Shown in pieces: positions 41,547 to 43,866 of a stretch of DNA of 54,327 bases. The notes beneath the pieces were generated by a model, which had not been told where the DNA came from, ran no database searches, and saw nothing but the letters and a program-made list of their open reading frames with translations. This stretch comes from Phycisphaerales bacterium (GTDB taxonomy: Bacteria; Planctomycetota; Phycisphaerae; Phycisphaerales; UBA1924): contig RECZ01000113.1 of the NCBI GenBank assembly GCA_007693765.1, positions 1 to 54,327 on the forward strand, in the 5' to 3' direction. The first letter of the stretch is position 1, and each line of letters opens with the position of its first letter. A program made the translations under genes and the position numbers.

Positions 41547-43070
41547 GTGCAGCGACCCAGCAAGACCCGTCCCGAGACCCTCGTCACGCTCCCCGTCCTC
41601 CGGGCGAACGGCGCGGGCGGTGCGCACCCCGCGGGGCCGGAAGCCAAAGAAAAATGCGGCGTCTTCGCCGTCTGGGGCGAGCCCGACGCCGCCCACCTCG
41701 CCTACACCGGCCTCTACGCCCAGCAGCACCGGGGGCAGGAATCCGCTGGCATCGCCGTCTCCGACGGGCAGCGGCTCGTCGGGCACACCGGCATGGGCCT
41801 CGTCCCGGAGATCTTCACCACCCGCATTCTCAAAGAACTCGGCGCCGTCGCGGCCAAGGGCTCGATCGGGCACAACCGCTACTCGACCTCGGGCGGCTCG
41901 CTCTCGTGCAACGCCCAGCCCCTGCTCGAGTCGTACATCGACGGGCAGGTCGCCGTCGCCCACAACGGCAACCTCGTCAACGCCGCGACCCTCCGCAGGC
42001 TCTACGAGGAAAACGGGCACATCTTCCACACCACCAGCGACACCGAGGTGGTGATCCACCTGCTCGCCTCGCCCCACCAGCAGCGCTCCGCCGATCCCCT
42101 CGCCGCGACGCTGCGACGCCTGCAGGGCGCGTTCAGCATGGTCTTCCTCTTCGCCGACCGCGTGGAAGCGGCGCGCGACCCGTGGGGCTGGCGCCCGCTG
42201 GTGCTCGGGCGCACGGAGAAGGGCGCCCCGTGCATCGCCAGCGAGTCCGTCGCCCTCGACGCCATCGGCGCCACCTACGAGCGTGAGGTCGAGCCGGGCG
42301 AGGTCGTCACCCTCAGCGACCGCGGCGTGGAGTCGCGACGCTTCGCCGAGGCCGTGTCGAGGCCAGCCCACTGCGTCTTCGAGCACGTGTACTTCGCCAG
42401 CCCTTCGAGCTTCGTCTTCGGGCAGACCGTCCAGATCGTCCGCGAGCGCCTCGGCGAGGAACTCGCCCGGGAGGCCCCCGTCGAGGGCGGCGCCGACTAC
42501 GTCATGCCCATGCCCGACTCGGGGCGCTCCGCCGCCAACGGCTACGCCCGCGCCAGCGGCATCCCCTACCGCGAGGGCATCGTTCCCAATCGCTACGTGG
42601 GGCGCACCTTCATCAAACCAACCCAGACCGAGCGCAACGCCGCCGTGCGCCTGAAGCTCAACGTCATCCGAGAGATCGTCAACGGCAGACGGCTGATCGT
42701 GGTCGACGACTCCATCGTCCGCGGCACGACGACGCAGGCCAAGATGTCGCAGCTCCGGGCCGCGGGCGCGAAAGAGATCCACCTGCGCATCTCCTGCCCG
42801 CCCATCCGCCACCCGTGCTACTTCGGCGTGGACTTCCCCGAGCGCACCCAGCTCATCGCCAACGAGCGCAGCGTCGAGGACATCAGGAAATACCTCGGCG
42901 TGGACTCGCTGCGATACCTCTCGCTCGAGGGCATGCTCAAGTGCGCGGCGACCCCGGGCATCCCCGGCGACCACTACTGCACCGCCTGCTTCTCGGGCGA
43001 GTACCGCATCGATATCGACCACCCCATCGCCCACGAGGCCTTCGAGCCGCGTCAGATGCAGTGGTTCTGA
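41547..43070 (+). CDS. purF: Amidophosphoribosyltransferase
   Basis: 507 residues from GTG at 41547; transfers ammonia from glutamine to PRPP, the first committed step of purine synthesis. The class II glutaminase domain begins at Cys37 (KCGVFAVWG), implying removal of a 36-residue propeptide, longer than the 11 residues in Bacillus. RYSTSGG, AHNGNLVN and the PRPP-binding loop VVDDSIVRGTTT are present. Cysteines in AHCVFEH, HPCYFGVDF and the CTAC pair near the end match the ligands of the 4Fe-4S, oxygen-sensitive Bacillus-type enzyme. Divergent from rpsD. Confidence 0.96.
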   Translation: MQRPSKTRPETLVTLPVLRANGAGGAHPAGPEAKEKCGVFAVWGEPDAAHLAYTGLYAQQHRGQESAGIAVSDGQRLVGHTGMGLVPEIFTTRILKELGAVAAKGSIGHNRYSTSGGSLSCNAQPLLESYIDGQVAVAHNGNLVNAATLRRLYEENGHIFHTTSDTEVVIHLLASPHQQRSADPLAATLRRLQGAFSMVFLFADRVEAARDPWGWRPLVLGRTEKGAPCIASESVALDAIGATYEREVEPGEVVTLSDRGVESRRFAEAVSRPAHCVFEHVYFASPSSFVFGQTVQIVRERLGEELAREAPVEGGADYVMPMPDSGRSAANGYARASGIPYREGIVPNRYVGRTFIKPTQTERNAAVRLKLNVIREIVNGRRLIVVDDSIVRGTTTQAKMSQLRAAGAKEIHLRISCPPIRHPCYFGVDFPERTQLIANERSVEDIRKYLGVDSLRYLSLEGMLKCAATPGIPGDHYCTACFSGEYRIDIDHPIAHEAFEPRQMQWF

Positions 43071-43078
43071 GGGGGGGG

Positions 43079-43232
43079 CTAGGCATCAGGCACTAGGCAT
43101 TAGGCATCAGGCCTGGAAAGAGGGCTTGAGACTGCTCACGCATCGCCACTTTTCCGAGTGCCTATTCCCTAATCCCTAATCCCTAATCCCTATTGCCTAG
43201 TGCCTATTGCCTAGTGCCTACTTCCTAATCCC
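43079..43232. repeat. Short-unit repeat patch with inverted halves
   Basis: The left part repeats TAGGCAT/TAGGCACTAGG on the plus strand; the right part has three CCTAATC copies in tandem (43168-43190), then GCCTATT and GCCTAGT alternating and a last CCTAATC. Left and right parts are largely inverted relative to each other around a unique centre (43112-43155), so the patch can form a long imperfect hairpin. The stop codon of the downstream flavin reductase gene (43225-43227) is formed by a repeat unit. Confidence 0.8.
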
Positions 43233-43866
43233 CCAACGCCTCCCGCCCCCACGGGATGTCGAACCGCTCGCGTGTGCGCACGTACGTCAAACCCGCCATG
43301 CGTCCCACCGCCCGCAGCCGCTCCGGGTCGATCCTGTACCGCTCGTCGACGACGCCGTCGCGCACAAAGACGTGCACCACGCGACCGATCACCACGTTGC
43401 CGCCCCCGGGGACGCCCGGGTTCAGGCGCACCACGTGCGTCGTCTCGCACTCGAAGCACACCGGCGCGAGCGCCACGCGATCGGGGCGCACCCGCGCGCT
43501 CGGGGCGCGCTCCAGGCCCGTCATCTCGAACTCGCTCTCGCCGTAGGGCAGGTCTTCCGCCGCCGCGGCCATCTGGCGCTCGTACGCCTCCGTCGTCACG
43601 TTCACCACGAACTGCCCAACGCCCCCCTCGCTCGCCGGCTTTGCGTTGCGCAGCGTGTCCTTCTCAGTCCCCGACGGGCTGTTGGAAGGGCAGAACAACA
43701 GCGACATCGGGTCCGAGCCGATCCCGTTATAGAACGAAAATGGCGCCAGGTTGTACCGGCCGTCGGGCGACACGGTGGACACCAGCGCGATCGGGCGCGG
43801 CACAATCGCGCCGATCAGCAGCTTGTACCGCTCCTGCAGTTCGATCAACGACGGGTCGATTTCCAT
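43225..43866 (-). CDS. Flavin reductase-like FMN-binding protein
   Basis: 213 residues of the flavin reductase/DIM6-NTAB split-barrel family. Recognisable parts are GAIVPRPIALVSTVSPDGRYN, the FNM-binding segment around PFSFYNGIGSDPMSLLF, and the VVNVTTEAYERQM helix. It binds FMN and probably reduces it or acts on a small substrate; no oxygenase partner is nearby. The ATG at 43866 follows TACACT by 6 nt, with no Shine-Dalgarno, again suggesting a leaderless message. The final codons and stop run into the repeat patch. Confidence 0.88.
   Translation of the reverse strand: MEIDPSLIELQERYKLLIGAIVPRPIALVSTVSPDGRYNLAPFSFYNGIGSDPMSLLFCPSNSPSGTEKDTLRNAKPASEGGVGQFVVNVTTEAYERQMAAAAEDLPYGESEFEMTGLERAPSARVRPDRVALAPVCFECETTHVVRLNPGVPGGGNVVIGRVVHVFVRDGVVDERYRIDPERLRAVGRMAGLTYVRTRERFDIPWGREALGD

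Follow-up and report, generated by a model that had tools for sequence, protein, structure and literature searches.

Facing heptamer arrays between purF and a convergent flavin-reductase gene in a Phycisphaerales genome, probably copies of a dispersed gene-edge repeat

The convergent gap beyond purF

The window, meaning the whole 54,327-nt stretch that was analyzed, is contig RECZ01000113.1 of the Phycisphaerales assembly GCA_007693765.1. It contains purF and a flavin-reductase-like gene, which converge on a patch of 7-base repeats at 43080-43232. Because purF ends at 43070, the patch occupies the entire 154-bp gap between the two genes. The features of the locus are as follows.

41547..43070, + strand: purF, amidophosphoribosyltransferase, with glutamine amidotransferase domain matches (Pfam); its 3' end carries the left array
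43080..43112, G-rich strand on +: left heptamer array, beginning 9 nt past the purF stop
43082-43111, + strand: core of the left array, four units, GG CATCAGG CACTAGG CATTAGG CATCAGG
43113..43160, no strand: centre between the facing arrays, 48 bp, without a T-tract terminator
43161..43232, G-rich strand on -: right heptamer array, about 10 units
43225..43227, - strand: TAG stop of the flavin-reductase gene, within the last CCTAATC unit of the right array
43225..43866, - strand: flavin-reductase-like gene (Pfam PF01613), with its 3' end inside the right array
43068..43227, either strand: RNA-folding stretch comprising the gap and both stop codons, with a long imperfect stem on either strand

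Tandem Repeats Finder, run on the window, reported period 7 at 43080-43112 (4.7 copies) and at 43161-43232 (10.3 copies). The initial annotation had described tandem 7-base units here, and both the program and direct reading bear this out. The 17-base pattern CCTNNTNCCTNNTNCCT has 11 matches in the window, all within 43081-43226, and 0 in 100 dinucleotide shuffles. The units had been given as CCTAATC/GCCTAGT. They are heptamers, but their composition is a mixture of variants: CCTAATC, CCTATTC/G, CCTAGTG, and CCTACTT in the right array and CCTGATG, CCTAGTG, and CCTAATG in the left. The array halves form an inverted repeat (I1, 40-nt arms, 80% complementary), as had been noticed, around a centre of 48 bp rather than 45 bp. 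The same annotation was right that a repeat unit supplies the flavin-reductase stop. It was also right to set aside a CRISPR (repeats of about 20-50 nt with unique spacers), since the window has 7-nt units head to tail without spacers.

The G-rich strand of both window arrays starts at a stop codon. Each of the two convergent genes, purF and flavin reductase, has one copy at its 3' end, with the G-rich strand of the copy leading outward. Since the G-rich strand of each copy points away from its own gene, the two copies make an inverted repeat. The polarity of arrays thus turns the inverted halves first noticed into one array per gene end. The patch is probably a pair of facing copies of a dispersed gene-edge repeat, one for each gene end.

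The same convergent pair is present without an array in G007, a family-level relative from another genus, where the stops are 8 nt apart. Its flavin reductase is 58% identical to that of the window and has the C-terminus RKALERSPPPPSDR, compared with REALGD in the window. As G007 has no array and a different C-terminus, the right array probably replaced the last codons of the flavin reductase. The comparison is indirect, G007 being of another genus, but it suggests that the right copy extended into the coding sequence, where it now provides the stop. No array was found at any readable purF end among 22 other purF loci (22 genomes); the end is not visible in two of these loci at least (L198 and L202), and the caller misplaced purF in some. 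In one locus, that of G012, an array lies some 600 nt beyond the purF end.

Distribution and polarity of the arrays

Arrays were found at about 10 sites in the same genome (2.9 Mb, 176 contigs) with patterns of two to four units. They lie on contigs C4, C11, C43, C53, C76, C103, C104, C112, C135, and C142. The patch is therefore not unique. For the initial annotation, uniqueness in the genome together with absence from close strains would have pointed to chance local slippage, and the first of these two does not hold. The pattern CCYRRTSCCYRRTSCCYRRTSCC matched in 19 of 41 genomes, namely the window's own, 14 of 24 from the same family, and 4 of 16 from the same order. Positive genomes had 1 to 162 matches. 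The same pattern read backwards gave near zero except in G011 (5) and G032 (27, exceeding its 2 true matches). Matches were present in 37 of 392 genomes of the phylum, and counts ran from 0 to 202 in one genus of seven genomes. These uneven counts among related genomes indicate that the heptamer array family is patchy and fast-changing.

Many matches to the backwards control, a CCSTRRY heptamer, were seen in G150, G168, G285, G148, G376, and others, several of which have few or no matches to the true pattern. This suggests another heptamer family in some members of the phylum. In viral contigs, 104 stretches match the four-unit pattern, a few contigs repeatedly (e.g., IMGVR_UViG_3300001677_000001 and 3300039412_000878). 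Loci with heptamer arrays in named organisms include many from cyanobacteria.

We placed 118 arrays relative to genes in six genomes. Genes were called by a codon-usage model seeded with the window model, and this home-made caller sets the gene edges. Edge genes had a Pfam match on the called strand in 29 of 29 tested (G000 and G012). The arrays of G012, G209, and G133 came from the three-unit pattern (about 100 or fewer listed places each) and those of G001 from 20 regions of its list, and the array statistics rest on this non-random subset of arrays.

Of 100 listed arrays with both neighbors, 82 had the nearest gene edge on the 5' side of the G strand and 18 on the 3' side; the other 18 of the 118 had one neighbor uncalled or lay inside a gene. 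Counting only edges within 15 nt, the G strand follows a stop in 56 of the arrays listed and lies beside a start in 5, and the C-rich strand follows a stop in 5. Only 1 of the 118 listed arrays lies inside a called gene. Close facing pairs have the order G-arm, centre, C-arm among the matches listed. The named-organism loci have the same polarity, 33 versus 4 in low-GC loci (mostly cyanobacteria) and 24 versus 8 in high-GC loci, among the 80 loci sampled from 117 listed stretches. At L071 (G012), an array at 2004-2040 begins 13 nt past the stop of rho (Rho_RNA_bind match).

The expectation that arrays sit at convergent gene ends held as an enrichment only. Array regions in the window's own genome are 2 convergent, 4 tandem, and 1 divergent (7 classifiable). 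Across the six genomes, convergent gaps make up 29 of 76 listed array regions versus 88 of 451 gene junctions (p 0.0006), and divergent gaps are depleted, at 7 of 76 versus 88 of 451 (p 0.035). The junction baseline is one 605-kb contig of G209.

Cassette structure and origin

The G-strand consensus of the cassette is GG-[SAYYRGG]n. Arrays range from 2 to 16 units and more. Among listed arrays of at least 2 units, lengths peak at four in G012 and at two and four in G001, where none is longer. The listed four-unit arrays of G012 have a C-starting unit first in 11 of 14, last in 14 of 14, and in the middle in 5 of 28. The corresponding counts in G001 are 13 of 13, 13 of 13, and 14 of 26. Middle units are often G-starting in both. 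Inspection by eye of four-unit arrays from cyanobacteria and others showed no such end-unit pattern. Arrays resemble one another in unit order more than shuffled units do (matched by 0/1000 shuffles in G012; p 0.001 in G001, p 0.048 in G209). Whole four-unit words recur in G001 (4 pairs versus 0.43, p 0.001), and no identical words recur in G012, in both cases among the arrays listed. The array flanks of G001 are conserved and purine-rich (AAGAAGG and AAGA).

In G012 (60.4% GC) the second Y of the unit is C in 3% of units, compared with 94% in G001 (61.7% GC). Unit palettes are genome-specific, and GC does not explain them. Cross-genome pairs of array-bearing edges are orthologous in 5 of 1,823 cases versus 82 of 253,408 for other edges of the same loci. 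Five array sites are common to different genera or species, and orthologous sites include an ATP-synthase beta-type gene, an iscS-type aminotransferase, and an AdoHcyase gene. Some array sites are old or favored while their units differ.

Other repeats were seen near the arrays. Arrays of G001 (L141-L160) are often followed by a few recurring hairpins, e.g., of the CATGCTC..GAGCATG and GCACTGACC..GGTCAGTG types, apparently another dispersed family of gene-end repeats. At L073:4890-4943 (G012), a period-8 repeat (GGCACTTC) directly follows a heptamer array.

Copying of a cassette between loci fits best, and we consider this spread, which we infer, the probable origin of the arrays. A cassette of typically four heptamers, GG-[SAYYRGG]n, would spread copy by copy between gene ends. 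Dispersed copies may recombine or undergo gene conversion with one another, or some other copying process may be at work. Slippage would lengthen and shorten the copies, which would persist where they do little harm, mostly within about 10 nt past a stop codon. Two copies in the RNA of either strand could then pair. The five shared sites also fit a functional or old site and not only recent spread.

A more specific version is a tentative possibility. A four-heptamer cassette of fixed polarity may be copied whole to gene edges and homogenized per genome (concerted evolution) by an unrecognized process in several phyla. In that case, quadruplex potential would be incidental to one palette, and what is conserved would be the 7-nt GG spacing and the direction away from the gene. 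As for a copying enzyme, reverse transcriptase (PF00078) and the REP-type transposase (PF01797) are absent or unrelated to array number in the 41 genomes, and this rejects an origin from a mobile element or reverse transcriptase.

A pure slippage microsatellite, not copied between loci and found at gene edges by tolerance only, is unlikely. It would account for the wide range of lengths and for gene interiors being nearly array-free. Period 7 is also the commonest intergenic tandem-repeat period in the G012 loci and in one G209 contig. Slippage leaves unexplained the fixed strand polarity, the C-unit ends and G-unit middles, the conserved flanks, and the genome-specific palettes at equal GC. 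On contig C1 of G209, intergenic period-21 repeats (three times seven) are nearly as common as period 7, at 11 versus 12 (e.g., 206-393, 59153-59327, and 180915-181100).

The arrays might instead be quadruplex elements, in which four G-tracts fold in DNA or RNA and modulate expression, as proposed for Xanthomonas and Nostoc repeats. The four-unit preference and the G-rich strand at gene edges, here and in excerpts of PMC4692102, agree with this. So does the right window array, with four GGG tracts at 7-nt spacing; it is the one quadruplex-capable array of 9 in its genome. Among listed arrays of at least 3 units in the six genomes, 32 of 94 are capable of the G3x4 form. The other 62, among them every such array of G001 (19) and of G133 (10), are incapable of a three-tetrad form and yet keep the polarity (46 versus 7, compared with 18 versus 9 for capable arrays, among those listed). 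G001 has no capable array and still has many of four units. Two-tetrad quadruplexes are possible for GG-only arrays. As an account of the family, the quadruplex is rather improbable.

The initial annotation saw the patch as perhaps a transcription barrier between purF and the convergent gene. In such a barrier, the hairpin of the paired arms would end both transcripts. The RNA of 43068-43227 does fold strongly on the two strands (-71.7 and -73.5 kcal/mol, z -4.98 and -4.75), and the enrichment of convergent gaps given above would also suit a barrier. Among the arrays listed, and as simple counts, a hairpin lies in the 100 nt past the array for 6 of 17 paired versus 28 of 41 single arrays, as if the paired arms stood in for it. 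The region 42900-43500 has 0 terminator-like sites with a T-tract. It is thus without an intrinsic terminator in the sense of a GC-rich hairpin with a T-tract. A search of 42800-43600 against Rfam gave no match at E of 1 or less. Hairpins within 100 nt after a gene end are no commoner after arrays (34 of 58 ends, among arrays listed) than after other ends (216 of 384), which rejects arrays as transcription terminators. In the other genomes, the readable purF ends likewise carry no array.

Facing pairs occur in G012 between the co-directional genes rpsM-rpsK, iscS and a NifU-like iscU, and clpP-clpP. The genes of rpsM-rpsK, iscS-iscU, and clpP-clpP are normally co-transcribed. Because paired arms lie between such genes, a general barrier role is unlikely. 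With pairs inside apparent operons, no T-tract, and no enrichment of hairpins, a barrier as the purpose of the patch is not upheld, and we regard this reading as quite improbable. Arm complementarity within a locus is barely above that between arms of different loci (permutation p 0.058), and selection on the hairpin is thus not clearly evident. The likeliest effect of pairing between the two copies would be a stable 3'-end or intercistronic hairpin acting on mRNA decay, rather than a dedicated transcription barrier.

Comparison with known repeat classes

REP/BIME elements have gene-end positions, inverted pairs, and dispersed copies. The window family has all three. Its heptamer units are not palindromic, unlike REP, and PF01797 is unrelated to array number and absent from the array-rich G001. 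REP with RAYT was rejected on these grounds.

The STRR1 consensus is CCCCART. The window units are CCTRRTS, which excludes cyanobacterial STRR1. CCCARTC arrays of Nostoc, Scytonema, and Fischerella match the degenerate CCYRRTS with the same polarity as the window family. The STRR heptamers of heterocystous cyanobacteria are 7-bp repeats, as in the window, and are described in excerpts of PMC2670836 as hairpin-capable and of no known function. Excerpts of MacGregor (2015, PMC4679880) place the TAACTGA heptamer repeats of Beggiatoaceae just upstream of start codons. Like the window's, these are dispersed intergenic heptamer direct repeats beside genes, patchy across phyla; they differ from it in sequence.

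The closest class is that of the GGGAATC arrays in Xanthomonas and the GGGGA(C/T)T arrays in Nostoc, which are intergenic (Rehm et al. 2015, PMC4692102, excerpts; likewise for all statements on this class below). These arrays lie nearer the ORF on their 5' side, regardless of how that ORF is oriented, and no more than 50 bp from a stop (coding strand) or a start (non-coding strand). They overlap stop codons and favor four units, and facing pairs are frequent in Xanthomonas. They form quadruplexes in vitro, and their function was left open. The initial annotation had proposed a lineage-specific hairpin repeat that was neither a CRISPR nor a known insertion sequence. The repeat is dispersed, lineage-variable, and hairpin-capable, but its kind is this class, described in 2015. 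We found no report of the class in planctomycetes in the literature (including excerpts of PMC2408588) and no detailed study of it besides PMC4692102.

The window family shares with this class the tandem 7-nt units (at least two), the intergenic and dispersed location, the overlap with stop codons, the facing pairs, the preference for four units, and the position nearer the ORF 5' of the G-rich strand (the 82 versus 18 above). It differs in its mixed letters, GG-[SAYYRGG], and in that most arrays are without GGG tracts. The unit GGGAATC (others GGGANTN) is absent from the window arrays, the left having only GGC units and the right GGGATTA. A GGG tract is not present in each unit, as the capable fraction of 32/94 listed arrays indicates. 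This lineage also has four-unit cassettes with defined end units, conserved purine flanks in one genome, and rarer start-side arrays (5 versus 56 within 15 nt).

The arrangement of polarity, inverted pairs, and four-unit preference is thus already known in kind from Xanthomonas and Nostoc, and the window arrays are a looser version of that repeat class. What appears new is this lineage, the two-G units that keep the polarity, the four-unit cassettes with defined ends and flanks, and the genome-specific palettes. The one detailed study that we found characterizes the class as quadruplex-forming and, in the excerpts available, assigns it no function. In the GG-only arrays, polarity and four-unit length occur without three-tetrad quadruplex potential, which makes these arrays a natural test of the quadruplex idea. 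With palettes at gene ends that are specific to each genome, it becomes a question what keeps short dispersed repeats alike within one bacterial genome.
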